Shown: positions 55,480 to 61,249 of the stretch, piece after piece
Numbering within the stretch: position 1 is the first letter of the stretch
How the letters are laid out: each line of letters begins with the position of its first letter
Assembly (NCBI RefSeq): GCF_003070885.1
Contig: NZ_CP028913.1
Location: 2,988,053 to 3,052,052 of the forward strand
Length of the DNA stretch: 64,000 nt
Direction of reading: 5' to 3'
Origin: Agromyces badenianii
Lineage (GTDB): Bacteria; Actinomycetota; Actinomycetes; Actinomycetales; Microbacteriaceae
The notes under the pieces: model-generated
Seen by the model: only the letters and a program-made list of their open reading frames with translations
Told to the model about the DNA's origin: nothing
Databases searched by the model: none
Position numbers and translations under genes: made by a program

Positions 55480-56460
55480 TCAGACGCCGTCGAGATTCTC
55501 GCCGAGCTCCGTCAGGATCCTCCGAAGATCTTGGACTGTCGCGAAATCAACCGTGATCTGGCCTTTTCTTGCTCCGAGTGCGATCTTCACCCGAGTGTTG
55601 AGGCGGTCGCCGAGCCGGCTTGCGAGGTCTTCGAGGAAGTCCTGTCGTTTTCCGGCCGCCGGCTTCTGTCGAGACGATTTCGGCTCGTTCGTCGCAACCG
55701 CCTCGGCGGCACGCACCGAAAGCTCCTCGTTGACGATCTTGTCGGCGAAGCGCTGCATCTCGGTCGCATCGTCACCGATCGACAGGATGGCGCGTGCGTG
55801 CCCCGCCGTCAGCACACCGGCGGCGACACGGAGCTGCACCGGCTCGGGCAGCTTGAGGAGCCGCAGCGTGTTCGAGATCTGCGGTCTGGAACGCCCGATG
55901 CGAGAGGCGAGTTCCTCCTGCGTGATGCCGAAGTCGGCGAGCAGCTGCTGGTAGGCCGACGCCTCTTCGAGCGGGTTGAGCTGTGAGCGGTGCAGGTTCT
56001 CGAGCAGCGCGTCGCGAAGCATGTCTTCGTTCGCGGTGTCCTTGACCACCGCAGGGATCGAATCGAGGCCGGCCGCCTTCGTCGCCCGAAGACGACGCTC
56101 GCCCATGACCAACTCGTACTTGCCGGGCAGATCGGGGTGACGGCGAACGACGATCGGCTGCAGCACGCCGAATTCGCGAACGCTGTGCACGAGCTCCGCG
56201 AGGTCATCGGGATCGAAGACGCTCCGCGGCTGCTGGGCGTTCGGAACGATGTCGTTCGGATCGAGGTGGGCAAGGTGGGCGCCCGGTACCGTGATGAGGC
56301 CCTCGCTCGCGACCGCCTCTTCGACGACGGCGATGGCCGCGGTGGGCTGCGCGTCGGAGTCGGGGAAGAACACGTCGACGGGTCGCGATCGCGTGGCGTC
56401 GTCGCCACTCGGGATCAGTGCGCCGATTCCACGGCCAAGTCCGGTCCGTTTGGTTGCCAT
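55480..56460 (-). CDS. parB: Chromosome-partitioning protein ParB
   Basis: 326 residues. The N-terminal CTPase/clamp domain has LDPNDIVPNAQQPRSVFDPDDLAELVHSVREFGVLQPIVVRR and GERRLRATKAAG (the GxRR box); the central helix-turn-helix FGITQEELASRIGRSRPQISNTLRLLKLP binds parS; the C-terminal dimerisation domain includes VDFATVQDLRRILTELG. Its start shares one base with the parA stop. It loads on the parS sites at 57-61 kb and is positioned by ParA. Confidence 0.96.
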   Translation of the reverse strand: MATKRTGLGRGIGALIPSGDDATRSRPVDVFFPDSDAQPTAAIAVVEEAVASEGLITVPGAHLAHLDPNDIVPNAQQPRSVFDPDDLAELVHSVREFGVLQPIVVRRHPDLPGKYELVMGERRLRATKAAGLDSIPAVVKDTANEDMLRDALLENLHRSQLNPLEEASAYQQLLADFGITQEELASRIGRSRPQISNTLRLLKLPEPVQLRVAAGVLTAGHARAILSIGDDATEMQRFADKIVNEELSVRAAEAVATNEPKSSRQKPAAGKRQDFLEDLASRLGDRLNTRVKIALGARKGQITVDFATVQDLRRILTELGENLDGV

Positions 56461-58373
56461 CAGTTCGACTCCTCGGGTTTCGCAGCGCCACGACGGGCGA
56501 TCTCGGCGGCTGCTTCTCGATACGACAGGGATCCACTCGACGCGAAGTCGTAGCTGATCACGCTCTGCCCATAACTCGGAGCCTCAGACACCCGCACTGA
56601 ACGGGGAATGATCGTTTCGAGGGTCTGAGCGGGGAAGTGGTCGCGAACCTCCTGCGCCACCTGCTGGGCCAGGTTCGTGCGGGAGTCGTACATGGTCAAG
56701 AGGATCGTCGACAGCCGGAGTTCGGGGTTCAGGTGCTTCTCGATCAGCTCGATGTTGCTCAGCAACTGCGAGAGTCCTTCGAGCGCGTAGTACTCGCACT
56801 GGATGGGGATCAAGACCTCACGTGCCGCGACGAATGCGTTGATGGTCAGCAATCCGAGCGACGGCGGGCAGTCGATGAAGACGTAGTCGTAAGGCCGCTC
56901 CATCGATGCGAGGTGGGTATCCAATGCACGTCGCAGTCGCTGCTCGCGGGCGACGAGCGAGACGAGCTCGATCTCCGCGCCGGCGAGGTGGATCGTGGCG
57001 GGCACGCAATCGAGCAGCTCGTGTTCCGTGGAAGGCTGCACCACCTCCGCGAGCGCGACGTCGGAGACGAGCACCTCGTAGACGCTCTTGCGTTCGGAAC
57101 GGTGATCGACACCCAGTGCGGTTGACGCGTTGCCTTGAGGGTCCAGGTCGATCACGAGCACGCGGGCACCGGATCGAGCGAGACCGGCGGCCAAGTTCAC
57201 GGCTGTCGTGGTCTTGCCGACGCCGCCCTTCTGATTCGAGATCGTCAGTACTCGTGTCGAAGGCGGCAGTGGGAGGACTGCCTCATCGAGTGCGATGCGA
57301 CGACGCGTCTCGTCGGCGAGTTCGTAGGCCAGGGGAGTTCCTCCGTGATCAGTAGACGTTTCACGTGAAACATCGGGGGCTTCGGTTTGGATCTGGGGCG
57401 CGAGCGACGACTGAGCTCCAGCGGGCTGCGGCGCGGGAGGTGGCAGAGGCGACGGCGGGACAACGAGCATTGGCGCGACGGGTGGTGCGGATTGCATCGC
57501 GGATTTGTCGACCGATGGTGCCCACGAAGAATGTGCGTGCTGCTGAGACTGGGCGTCGATCGGCAGTTCGAACGTTGCGCGCTCCGAGGGATGCGATTCG
57601 GCGGGCTCGCTCGGGGAATCCGAAGGAACGGCGTCGGGAGAGGGACTGATGTCTACGCTCTCTACGCTCGCAGGGACAGCGAGCGGCGTCACATCGAGTG
57701 ACGACGCAGCACTTGGGTCTGCGGTTTGACTGCTTGAGAGTCGTTCGTCAGTGCCTTCGTGTGGCGCGGCACCCCTGTCGACAGGCATGCGGGTCGGGTG
57801 CAATGCCGACGCGGTTTCAGCCGTAGCGTCACCGACGATCTCTCGAATCAGATCTTCGAGGAGTCGATCAGGGCCAGCAGCCGGATGCCGGCTCGCTTCA
57901 GAAGGCTGCGGCTCGACCTCGTCAGCCAAGGCCGCGGCGGTGGCTGCATCCCAATCAATCCCGCCGCTGGGTGTGTCTCCCTTTGGAGTGCCTGTCTTCT
58001 CGCCCTCTAGCGGTGGCGACGTCCACACTGGGGTTGCGCCGGAGGCAGCAGGGGAGGGGAGTGGGTCCAGCGACGGCGGAACTGCGACATCACCGTGCCG
58101 GTGCTCGTTCGATGTCGACGGTGCCGGTGCCGGTGCCGGTGCCGATTTGAATACTCCGCTGGGCCGCGAATCGCGACTCTCGGAGCTGGTGGTCGGAGAC
58201 GTCTGTTCCTGACCTGGTTCAACAAATCCCGCCGGCCGCAGCGGCTCACTCACAGCATCGGGCTGATGATCTGGCGGCGCCGACTGCGAGGGCGCCGTGC
58301 CGTTCGTCATCTCGTCTGGGCTGGGGCGAGGGCGCTTGCGGTGAAACCAGCCACGTCCTCCGCCCTGTGCCAT
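56460..58373 (-). CDS. parA: Chromosome-partitioning ATPase ParA with long disordered N-terminal extension
   Basis: 637 residues from the ATG at 58373, which has GGAG 8 bp upstream; usual chromosomal ParA is 260-330. The ATPase begins near residue 370: VLTISNQKGGVGKTTTAVNLAAGLA (deviant Walker A), DLDPQGNASTAL, YVFIDCPPSLGLLTINAF. Residues 1-370 are Pro/Ser/Ala/Glu-rich and low complexity, with a basic start (GWFHRKRPRPSP) and two short helical islands (about 139-153, GIDWDAATAAALADEV; and 168-181, PDRLLEDLIREIVG). A parS site lies inside the gene, coding for DVSRET. An internal start cannot be excluded, but no good one was found. Confidence 0.88.
   Translation of the reverse strand: MAQGGGRGWFHRKRPRPSPDEMTNGTAPSQSAPPDHQPDAVSEPLRPAGFVEPGQEQTSPTTSSESRDSRPSGVFKSAPAPAPAPSTSNEHRHGDVAVPPSLDPLPSPAASGATPVWTSPPLEGEKTGTPKGDTPSGGIDWDAATAAALADEVEPQPSEASRHPAAGPDRLLEDLIREIVGDATAETASALHPTRMPVDRGAAPHEGTDERLSSSQTADPSAASSLDVTPLAVPASVESVDISPSPDAVPSDSPSEPAESHPSERATFELPIDAQSQQHAHSSWAPSVDKSAMQSAPPVAPMLVVPPSPLPPPAPQPAGAQSSLAPQIQTEAPDVSRETSTDHGGTPLAYELADETRRRIALDEAVLPLPPSTRVLTISNQKGGVGKTTTAVNLAAGLARSGARVLVIDLDPQGNASTALGVDHRSERKSVYEVLVSDVALAEVVQPSTEHELLDCVPATIHLAGAEIELVSLVAREQRLRRALDTHLASMERPYDYVFIDCPPSLGLLTINAFVAAREVLIPIQCEYYALEGLSQLLSNIELIEKHLNPELRLSTILLTMYDSRTNLAQQVAQEVRDHFPAQTLETIIPRSVRVSEAPSYGQSVISYDFASSGSLSYREAAAEIARRGAAKPEESN
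57357..57372. other. parS: parS site 1, inside parA
   Basis: CGTTTCACGTGAAACA matches the conserved parS palindrome (TGTTTCACGTGAAACA) at 15 of 16 positions. It lies in the parA coding region at codons for residues 334-339. Confidence 0.93.
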
Positions 58374-58727
58374 GCCGACTACTCCAACCCGTTGGTGTGT
58401 GGCCAAGACCGCCGCTCTGCGGCAGTCTCGGTCCGAGAGTCAAGCCTAACCGCCGCAACCCACTCTCAAGTTGACGACGAGCGAACTCGACGAGATCCGA
58501 GCCGATCGTCCCTGTGGAGGAGTGCTCCGTCGCGGATCGAGTTCGCCAGTGCCGGCTTCGGGCCCGTGCGCACACGAAGCATGGACTCTCCGAAGGGCGC
58601 CAGAAGGCACCGCCGCATGGACGCCGGGCAACGGCATGACCTCTCGCGGGCCTGCAGGTGTCCCTCGATCGTCTGACGGCAACCTTATGGCGCCTGGTTC
58701 CCCCGGCCGTCCGGTGCTGATGGCCAG

Positions 58728-58897
58728 GTGAGGTGCTGGGCCAAGTGAGGTGCTGGGCGGGGTGAGGTGGTGGTCCAGGCGAGATGGTGGGCCACGTGAG
58801 GTGGTGGTCCAGGCGAGATGGTGGGCCACGTGAGGTGGTGGTCCAGGCGAGATGGTGGGCCACGTGAGGTGGTGGTCCAGGCGAGATGGTGGGGTGG
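58728..58897. repeat. Ten-copy 17-bp tandem repeat beside parS
   Basis: Ten consecutive 17-bp units run from 58728 to 58897. The first two read GTGAGGTGCTGGGCCAA and GTGAGGTGCTGGGCGGG. The others alternate between GTGAGGTGGTGGTCCAG and GCGAGATGGTGGGCCAC, giving a 34-bp higher-order unit that is almost identical over three to four copies. CACGTG, the parS core hexamer, is formed at three 34-bp boundaries (58793, 58827, 58861). The plus strand is strongly G-rich. A full parS follows 22 bp later. Confidence 0.92.
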
Positions 58898-58918
58898 TGG
58901 GGTGTTCGCGGGCGACCG

Positions 58919-58934
58919 TGTTTCACGTGAAACA
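58919..58934. other. parS: parS site 2
   Basis: Perfect TGTTTCACGTGAAACA, in the gene-free parA-rsmG interval, 22 bp after the tandem repeat array. Confidence 0.96.
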
Positions 58935-59186
58935 CTGAGGCGCGAGCGGCGCCGGCGGCGCAGACGGTTCGGGCGCCGGCGGACGGTGCATCCACACCGA
59001 GCGAGGCGGATAGTGCAGAAGATCGCATTGGTACGGCCACTCTCGGGCGGTGCAGCTATTGAGAGTCGCTCGGTGCGTCAGGGAGCCAGGGGTAGTCCTC
59101 ACCTGACCCCGCACATCGTCAGGCGTGCGTGTCAGAGGTATGTGATCGATCGCCTCAGTGCTCGTGCACACCCTGAATCCTCGTTG

Positions 59187-59202
59187 CGTTTCACGTGAAA
59201 CG
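59187..59202. other. parS: parS site 3
   Basis: CGTTTCACGTGAAACG, a perfect palindrome with both outer bases changed from the consensus. Confidence 0.9.
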
Positions 59203-59614
59203 GCTGATCGCTCGCGCGCATCCGAGGCGACCGAGACAAAGCTTGCCTGGCGCCAAGTGCATTGCGGCACGGAGGAAACAGAAGGGCTCGGGTGGGAGTG
59301 GAAGCGACCCACACGGCGCTACGTGCTCCCCTCCTCGCGATGTCGAGCAATCGCGCGTCGCGATAGGCCAAGGGCTTGGCTCCTCGAGAACTCCGATGCC
59401 AGAGAAGGCGCCGGATCGCCCTGACGTGACGCAATCCCGAGTTGCAGCGGCCGCACCGGCTCTCAACAACAGCCAGGTGGAGGGCGCTCGAACGCGGCCG
59501 AACCAGCCGAGTCCCCACCAAGAACCGGCGCAAGGCGCGCTTGGTTGGGCCGCGCTGTGCCCAGCCGGGTTGTGGGGCGTTCGGTAGTCTGACTCCACCG
59601 TCACGGACCTGCCA

Positions 59615-59630
59615 TGTTTCACGTGAAACT
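59615..59630. other. parS: parS site 4
   Basis: TGTTTCACGTGAAACT, 15 of 16 consensus positions. Confidence 0.92.
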
Positions 59631-60141
59631 GCCGCGCGAGCCTGGCATCCACCAGAGACCCGGCCGCGACCGACGACGACATGTGCTCAGCCCGTCACCC
59701 GGTACAACACGACCGCCTGGCACACCGCGCTCGGTGACGACCTCCATCGAAGAAACCCACAGCCACCCACTTCAGTCGACCGCCCACCGTGCCCACCAAC
59801 CGCAAGCCCGCCCATATCGACCGCGTCATCGACGTCTTTGACAAGTCGAGGTCACGGCCGTCTCATTGGCACGTTCACCAGTTCGTGCCTGATCCATGCA
59901 GACACCAGCCGGCGGGGTGTGTGGTGACGCGACGCCAGCGTCCGATCGCTGATGAGGGTTCATCGACGCTGCGCGGGTGCCTCCGTGTTTTCACTACGGG
60001 TGTTCCCGATCACCGGTGCCGAACGGGCGTTGCCGACCTTCGGTGCTGAGACGGTCGCGTTCGCAAAGCCCTGACCCGCCGGCGGGATACGGCGATTCTC
60101 TCTGAGGCGACCGCCCCGCCAGCAGACCGCAGCCGCACCTT

Positions 60142-60179
60142 TATAGGGAGGTGAAAGGACTATAGAGAGGTGAAAGGAC
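60142..60179. repeat. 19-bp tandem duplication
   Basis: TATAGGGAGGTGAAAGGAC (60142-60160) is directly followed by TATAGAGAGGTGAAAGGAC (60161-60179), one base different. Confidence 0.85.
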
Positions 60180-60234
60180 GCGACAGTGAAGGTGAAGGAG
60201 GCGACAGTGGAGTTGGAAAGAGAGGAGGAAGTGG

Positions 60235-60274
60235 CAGTAGCAGTAGCAGTAGCAGTGACAACGACAACGACAAC
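60235..60274. repeat. Microsatellite-like hexamer runs
   Basis: CAGTAG repeated three times plus CAGT (60235-60256) is followed by GACAAC repeated three times (60257-60274). Simple repeats of this kind are rare in bacterial chromosomes. Confidence 0.85.
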
Positions 60275-60400
60275 CGAGTGAGCTGCACTCACCAGCCCAA
60301 ACGCGTCGACCCGATGAGCTCAAGCACGGAACCAGAGCGCGCAGTGCGATTCGAAACACGGCGCTGCCCAGAACTCTGCCCCTGTAGTCGCCGTCCCCAG

Positions 60401-60416
60401 CGTTTCACGTGAAACA
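60401..60416. other. parS: parS site 5
   Basis: CGTTTCACGTGAAACA, 15 of 16 consensus positions. Confidence 0.92.
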
Positions 60417-60493
60417 CGAGGGGGGAGCCGTTACGCAGGATGCACGGCGGATGCAGATTCCGCCCTTCTCACTTAGCAGGACGGCCGAATGCC

Positions 60494-60541
60494 CGAAGGC
60501 TCGAAGGCTCGAAAGCACGAAGGCCTGAAGGCCTGAAGGCC
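60494..60541. repeat. Short 9-bp tandem repeats
   Basis: Five near-copies of a 9-bp unit of the form CGAAGGCTC, CGAAAGCAC, TGAAGGCC run head to tail just before the rsmG 3' end. Confidence 0.75.
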
Positions 60542-60608
60542 ACCGTCCTACTCGTAGCACTCGGGCCGAAGCCACGTGCGTACGACCGGCGCGAGATCGA
60601 CCCGGGCG

Positions 60609-61241
60609 TCAGCCCGCGGTGGCGCGGAATACCCGAGTCACCTCGGAGACCACGCCTTCGCCGAGCACGAGCACCTCGACGTCATGCAGGTGATGCCTGC
60701 GAATGACCTTCTCGGCCGCGGCGATCTCGCCGTCGACGCCGGCGCCCTTCATGAGCACGAGTTCGCCGCCGGGCTTCAGCAGGGGAGCGGTGACGGGGAT
60801 CAGGGTGCGAAGTGCGCTCACCGCACGAGCGGTGACCTGATCGAGGGAATCGAACAACTTCGACTCTTCCGCGCGGGCGCGGACGACCGTGACGTTCTCG
60901 AGCTCGAGCTCCGCCGCTTGCCGTTCCAGCCAGGCGACCCGTCGCTCCATCGGCTCGATCAGTGTGAAAGAGGCATCCGGGCGCAGAATCGCGAGGACCA
61001 GACCGGGAAGCCCGGCGCCCGAACCGACGTCGCCGACGCGACCCGGGCGGAGGAGCGGCGCGACGAGCGCACTGTTCAACACGTGCCGCGTCCACAGGCG
61101 AGGCAGTTCCAACGGACCGATGAGTCCGAGTTCTTCGCCGTGGCGTGCGAGCGCGGTGGTGAAGGCGCGGCCCTTTTCGATGTGGTCGCCGAAGAGCTCT
61201 GCCGCGGCGGCCGGCTCGGGCTCGAGTCCGTCGAGTTTCAC
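60609..61241 (-). CDS. rsmG: 16S rRNA (guanine-527 N7)-methyltransferase
   Basis: 210 residues. The SAM-binding fold shows GDVGSGAGLPGLVLAIL, LIEPMERRVAWLERQAAEL, VVRARAEE and TARAVSALRTLIPVTAPLLKPGG. It methylates G527 of 16S rRNA. The GTG start (61239-61241) lies inside a parS palindrome, so ParB bound there could affect the gene. It follows jag by 8 bp. Confidence 0.95.
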   Translation of the reverse strand: MKLDGLEPEPAAAAELFGDHIEKGRAFTTALARHGEELGLIGPLELPRLWTRHVLNSALVAPLLRPGRVGDVGSGAGLPGLVLAILRPDASFTLIEPMERRVAWLERQAAELELENVTVVRARAEESKLFDSLDQVTARAVSALRTLIPVTAPLLKPGGELVLMKGAGVDGEIAAAEKVIRRHHLHDVEVLVLGEGVVSEVTRVFRATAG

Positions 61242-61249
61242 GTGAAACG
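61234..61249. other. parS: parS site 6, across the rsmG start codon
   Basis: AGTTTCACGTGAAACG spans the jag-rsmG junction and contains the rsmG GTG start. It matches 14 of 16 consensus positions. Confidence 0.9.

Follow-up and report, generated by a model that had tools for sequence, protein, structure and literature searches.

In the established ParB-CTP mechanism, ParB loads at parS and slides off as a clamp. The accessible text of PMC7053999 describes ParB-CTP clamps that load at parS and slide and that can be blocked by DNA-bound proteins and RNA polymerase, and bypass of roadblocks by ParB was reported in an in vitro study (PMC9242446, in its accessible part). For C. glutamicum, the available part of PMC7083940 describes ten parS sites within a 35-kb region that lies 73 kb from oriC, nine of them intergenic. 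ChIP-seq showed ParB binding there and Hi-C showed that the chromosome arms are aligned in an SMC-dependent way; a single parS was enough for wild-type-like growth. The available part of PMC5815017 describes a native parS cluster with a permissive zone in Caulobacter crescentus, and raises the question of how centromere regions expand. We analyzed a window of 64,000 nucleotides (the whole stretch of DNA examined) from Agromyces badenianii. The window carries an origin-proximal parS cluster like that of C. glutamicum, but here six parS sites lie within 3.9 kb and four of them are in a spacer next to parA. The clustering of several parS sites near the origin is also like that in C. crescentus, whereas a hypervariable, gene-free spacer of the present kind is not described for that species in the same part of PMC5815017. 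No description of a hypervariable parS-spacer arrangement was found in searches of the open-licence PMC literature, a scope in which subscription journals are mostly not included.

The genes of the region were found on the minus strand in the order yidC, jag, rsmG, spacer, parA and parB (Table 1). The genome is a single contig of 3.05 Mb, and the window lies at its end. ParA had the deviant Walker A motif KGGVGKTT and matched AAA_31 with 209 bits (cut-off 27), while its score for the NCBIfam equivalog ParA_partition was below the cut-off (115.5 of 180). As in a ParABS system, a ParB/Spo0J family protein (TIGR00180) is encoded directly beside parA and the parS palindromes lie near the replication origin; the latter assumes circular closure of the contig, in which case the cluster is about 3-7 kb from the dnaA domain found at 544-1029 of the same contig. 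An SMC gene was also found in the genome. The ParA start was placed at 58373, at an M-x-x-GGGRGWFHRKR-type motif that was present in 49 of the 57 loci of the genus. The N-terminal part of parA (57360-58373) consists of the GGGRGWFHRKR-like start and, ahead of the ATPase core, a long linker that is variable and has only a weak codon bias. The GWF-type motif with its extension was also seen in a few sister lineages, and many ParA proteins of the family have only about 35-60 residues before the core.

Table 1. Features of the rsmG-parA-parB region (positions are those of the window).
Feature	Position	Strand	Basis
parB	55480..56460	-	TIGR00180, 196.6 bits, cut-off 58.45
parA, conserved N-terminal motif and long variable linker	56460..58373	-	motif, Pfam and NCBIfam matches
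parS inside parA, encodes VSRET	57357..57372	.	consensus scan
Upstream region of parA, conserved; probably promoter and leader	58374..58521	-	78-81% alignment, six close relatives
Hypervariable spacer without recognisable gene, four parS	58522..60608	.	no blastn similarity, no coding signal
Species-specific tandem array, 34-bp unit x5 (17-bp x10)	58722..58893	.	
parS, perfect 16-mer	58919..58934	.	consensus scan
parS	59187..59202	.	consensus scan
parS	59615..59630	.	consensus scan
27-bp imperfect repeat x2	59996..60054	.	repeat search
Short tandem repeats (units of 19, 21 and 6 bp)	60142..60256 (60142-60209, 60230-60256)	.	repeat search
parS	60401..60416	.	consensus scan
8-bp repeat x7 near rsmG stop	60485..60541	.	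repeat search
rsmG	60609..61241	-	TIGR00138, 128.1 bits, cut-off 99.5
parS overlapping rsmG start codon, jag-rsmG junction	61234..61249	.	consensus scan

The parS sites were located by a 16-mer scan of the window with the 16-bp consensus, which we take to be TGTTTCACGTGAAACA. Six matches with 0-2 mismatches each were found within 3.9 kb (57357-61249), all six with the exact 12-bp core; the chance expectation was 0.07, and none of 100 shuffles reached six. A search of the whole 3.05 Mb genome found the core TTTCACGTGAAA at these six positions only. The six sites confirmed the first-pass annotation, in which four sites in the interval and two flanking ones had been counted. The site within parA lies exactly 110 bp ahead of the ParA core in 51 of the 57 Agromyces loci, and a site just upstream of the RsmG match was present in 42 of 57. 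Between the rsmG stop and the parA start lie 2,235 bp, which contain four of the parS sites. This whole interval had been taken as spacer, and 58522-60608 stood up to that description, but the last 150 bp or so (58374-58521) proved to be a conserved parA upstream region. No sigma-70-like promoter match was found in the region that includes 58374-58521.

We examined the width of the rsmG-parA gap in the genus, the family and the class. The distance from the rsmG stop to the ParA core, which includes the long N-terminal part of ParA itself (about 1.1 kb in the window), was 1063-7129 bp in all 57 measurable Agromyces loci (median 3781); in the A. badenianii window it was 3348 bp, which is below the median. 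These loci came from 60 genomes, two of which had no usable rsmG match while one had rsmG and parA on different contigs. The spacer proper was measured in 49 loci, after the eight without the ParA start motif were dropped, and was 334-4995 bp long (median 2508), with at least 1000 bp in 47 of the 49 and the present spacer 21st from the shortest; rsmG appears to be frameshifted in the assembly of locus L085 (G029), so the spacer of that locus includes a piece of rsmG. In comparison, the rsmG-ParA core distance had a median of 247 bp in 60 family genomes of 54 other genera, hand-picked from 145 matching non-Agromyces genomes and mainly from the upper part of the list (at least 1500 bp in 11, below 500 bp in 37), and a median of 345 bp in 40 of 74 class genomes (four above 1000 bp). 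The interval is therefore expanded, as had been proposed, with respect to family and class, but within the genus a wide gap is normal. Microbacterium and some Leifsonia also had a wide gap. On a FastTree tree with many weakly supported forks (129 rows, of which 127 were different, so that two genomes were counted twice), the wide state needed at least 14 changes, compared with at least 34 in 200 shuffles. It thus arose or was lost repeatedly.

The sequence of the spacer was compared among relatives. In a blastn search of the present spacer against 57 other Agromyces loci, nothing was found beyond the parA upstream region, a 23-bp match centred on parS and a few bases past rsmG. The spacers of Agromyces pairs with 86-90% parB identity (n = 12) aligned over 0-3%, those of four pairs with 92-96% identity over 35-62%, and those of four pairs with 83-84% identity over 16-18%, the last being consistent with a shared phosphatase gene. 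By contrast, coding-free control regions with aligned flanks, which at 123-548 bp are shorter than the spacer, aligned over 98% and 100%, respectively, in two pairs with 86-90% identity, for which 10 of 24 and 9 of 29 regions qualified. The controls of the present window aligned over 92%, 81% and 85% with three relatives (6 of 21 regions qualified each), one control region reaching only 35-39%; the alignment of the spacer ends on average within 25-50 bp of the rsmG stop. The spacer between the parS sites turns over far faster than the other intergenic regions tested. Microbacterium spacers behaved alike, with 4-14% aligned at 87-93% identity, and the Cryobacterium regions behind parB were mostly lost too, although single pairs aligned at 25% and 79%. 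The first-pass annotation had named a conserved protein encoded in the interval as the finding that would speak against it; such a protein was not found.

The parS sites themselves were kept. The 117 kb of spacer from the 49 Agromyces loci contained 157 perfect, 18 one-mismatch and 10 two-mismatch sites, whereas 0.1 one-mismatch and 0.9 two-mismatch sites were expected by chance. Neutral copies would leave decayed sites common, and perfect sites far outnumbered decayed ones. parS was the outstanding shared word of the spacers, and no second motif was comparable. Doublets of parS less than 70 bp apart were slightly more frequent than expected (18 observed, 9.9 expected; P = 0.011). The data also showed that the parS layout was kept in 16 pairs with 85-92% parB identity, with none of 1000 permutations as close, in a test made on 16 overlapping pairs of 16 species with one distance measure of our own. 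Spacer length was shared in the 16 pairs of the same range (P = 0.001). However, the four closest pairs (at least 92% identity) were not the most alike in layout (0.106, compared with 0.075-0.082 for 85-92%). A layout that is kept while the sequence is lost points to change in place and not to block replacement. With parS masked, CAGTAC (28 of 49 spacers, 8.4 expected) and ACGTAC (32 of 49, 14.2 expected) were in mild excess.

A mirrored arrangement was found in Cryobacterium and several other genera, which have the parS cluster behind parB and only a short distance between rsmG and parA. The median gap behind parB was 980 bp where at least three parS sites were present there (34 rows, two genomes counted twice) and 67 bp where there were none (57 rows), and 136 of the 144 parS sites of the rows with at least three fell inside the gap. 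Among 128 rows, a count that leaves out a row without a located parB, 54 had a wide rsmG-parA gap, 35 had a cluster behind parB, and none had both. The result was the same in the 125 rows for which at least 2.4 kb of sequence behind parB was covered, and in the 27 of the wide-gap rows for which this was 5 kb or more. When the named Agromyces loci with at least 6.7 kb behind parB were considered (27 of 29), 26 had no parS there and one had a single site. Among four rows of other families, one had a cluster behind parB, with a short rsmG-parA gap. The wide gap thus goes with the cluster and not with one locus. An independent-contrast test of the either-side rule had too few pairs to prove exclusion (9 supported pairs, median P = 0.5).

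Our preferred reading, to which we give a probability of about 0.6, is that this region is an ordinary, origin-proximal chromosomal ParABS centromere in an unusual form, in which fixed parS sites are carried on a track whose own sequence is irrelevant. The unusual part is the wide, hypervariable spacer with a shared layout. ParB is predicted to bind the six parS sites, from which the clamp would slide onto the adjacent DNA and recruit ParA and SMC, if the ParB-CTP mechanism applies here. Selection would act on the parS sites, on how many there are and on roughly how they are laid out next to parAB, and would also keep most of the track between them gene-free. A gene-free stretch could act as an open track for sliding ParB. 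The bases of the track would hardly matter and would turn over by slippage, tandem duplication, indels and substitution. What we infer is that ParB and SMC are loaded here and that an open track is useful; since one parS is enough in C. glutamicum, the same applies to any use of the track or of more than one site. The wide range of spacer lengths and the genes present in 17 of the 49 spacers count against the track.

Neutral expansion around selected parS sites is a serious rival, which we regard as possible though on the unlikely side. According to this explanation, only parS is selected, and the surrounding non-coding DNA accumulates without use as a mutational by-product, with ParB/SMC traffic, fork stalling or repeat slippage favouring duplication and insertion near the sites. 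In its favour, tandem repeats made up 6.4% of the Agromyces spacers; the figure was 0.93% for 400 kb of chromosome in the vicinity, most of which is coding, and 0.2% for the flanking genes. In the Agromyces spacer L059, a 222-bp unit with parS inside it was repeated 3.4 times (positions 1031-1789), and behind parB of Cryobacterium sp. Y11 (L126) seven consecutive parS sites lay at exact 130-bp steps, which suggests that parS was multiplied there by tandem duplication. The varying length of the spacers, and the genes and transposons tolerated in them, also fit a by-product. However, close relatives share spacer length and parS layout despite the lost sequence, and parS sites alone do not widen a gap, because 33 of the 51 gaps below 300 bp in the family and class sets contain one or two of them.

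We also analyzed the coding content of the interval, which had been described as 2.2 kb without a credible gene; this description was borne out. With a codon model trained on 13 genes of the window, the best-frame scores of 14 windows across the interval were at the shuffled null (one above the 95% point, none above the 99% point), while parB, the parA core, rsmG, jag and yidC scored +0.3 to +0.7 bits per codon. Nine interval ORFs of at least 110 aa were without a Pfam match at E 0.1; two further ORFs, which overrun parA or rsmG, were outside that scan. In Rfam nothing reached the gathering score in the interval, the single match being at chance level (E 0.78), and terminator-like sites in the region were at chance level as well (3 against 1.7 expected). 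A gene or known RNA in the interval was rejected on the codon, Pfam and Rfam results. That undetected genes, an RNA gene or gene remnants occupy the interval is highly improbable. Long ORFs do occur in this GC-rich DNA, genes for an S66 peptidase, AraC/glyoxalase, a tyrosine phosphatase or a transposase lie at the same place in relatives, and an odd gene could escape the codon test, in which the true, coding parA linker also scored low (-0.26); but, besides the codon, Pfam and Rfam results, no DNA similarity was found in relatives, the family, plasmids or phages.

In the other species the spacer is not always free of genes. No gene was predicted in 32 of the 49 spacers and at least one in 17, and by a looser count over all 57 loci 24 had at least one; the calls were made with our own codon score, and the Pfam scan covered 10 of the 34 predicted genes. 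Nine of the ten passed the Pfam cut-off (Peptidase_S66, glyoxalase (two), AraC-type HTH, Y_phosphatase3, DUF1214/DUF1254, YecM and two transposases). In two Agromyces species (L067 and L075), Mutator family and rve/IS481-like transposases were inserted in the parS spacer, one of the two in a locus outside the 49-spacer set. The parS sites of the spacers avoided predicted genes (1 of 166 inside, about 18 expected), to which coding constraint alone could contribute. Gene-freeness is thus a tendency and not a rule, and the genes in some relatives' spacers mean that it is not strictly required. The first-pass annotation had proposed a specialised parS region rather than scattered sites. A dedicated, clustered and largely gene-free region is supported by the avoidance of genes, the excess of perfect over decayed sites and the wide gap behind parB where the cluster sits there, but gene-freeness as a requirement was not upheld.

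That an island or a degraded element of foreign origin was recently inserted between parA and rsmG is very improbable, for although the interval is unlike that of relatives and transposases were found in the spacers of two other species, its GC content is the same as that of the flanks, the gap is wide throughout the measured Agromyces loci, close species share the parS layout, and no match was found elsewhere in the genome, the family, plasmids or phages. The spacer is single-copy in its own genome, and against 199 family genomes, with two candidates scored per genome, only the self match was obtained. A mobile, plasmid or phage origin of the spacer was rejected.

Eukaryotic regional and satellite centromeres combine a conserved function with fast sequence turnover and species-specific tandem arrays. 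In the respects compared, the preferred reading of a parS-bearing track is like them, since fast turnover between close species and species-specific arrays were both found here, together with what would be a conserved function. Unlike eukaryotic centromeres, whose identity is not fixed by DNA sequence, the position is set here by a strict DNA sequence and not by histone-based specification. Because parS is strictly kept, the locus resembles a satellite-like centromere but is not a member of that class. It is a tentative and somewhat doubtful extension to see in it a bacterial 'regional' centromere, with heritable parS spacing, a free track that mutates faster than the remaining chromosome through the centromere's own protein traffic, and evolutionary switching between the two sides of parAB. 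The dozens of species form a natural series for testing what a bacterial centromere needs, as the number of parS sites, their spacing, the length of open track and the side of parAB on which it lies all vary across it while parS itself is constant. A further question is whether the zones where ParB and SMC load act as mutational hotspots.

Finally, the repeats of the interval were analyzed. The array in the spacer had been described as ten copies of a 17-bp unit; the array exists, but 5.1 copies of a 34-bp unit (92%) fit better than 10.1 copies of a 17-bp unit (77%). It was seen in one of 60 Agromyces genomes, that of its own species, so it did not hold up as part of a conserved device. The possibility that the array is a set of weak parS sites was rejected, since allowing up to 3 mismatches to the 16-mer gave no additional site and the array is private to the species. 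Smaller repeats were also found in the interval (Table 1). Repeat units differed among the Agromyces spacers, and the present spacer, with 16.6% tandem repeat, ranked fourth of 49. Of the 59 other Agromyces genomes listed, 56 were larger than the present one (3.05 Mb), and the three smaller ones include two that are poorly assembled.
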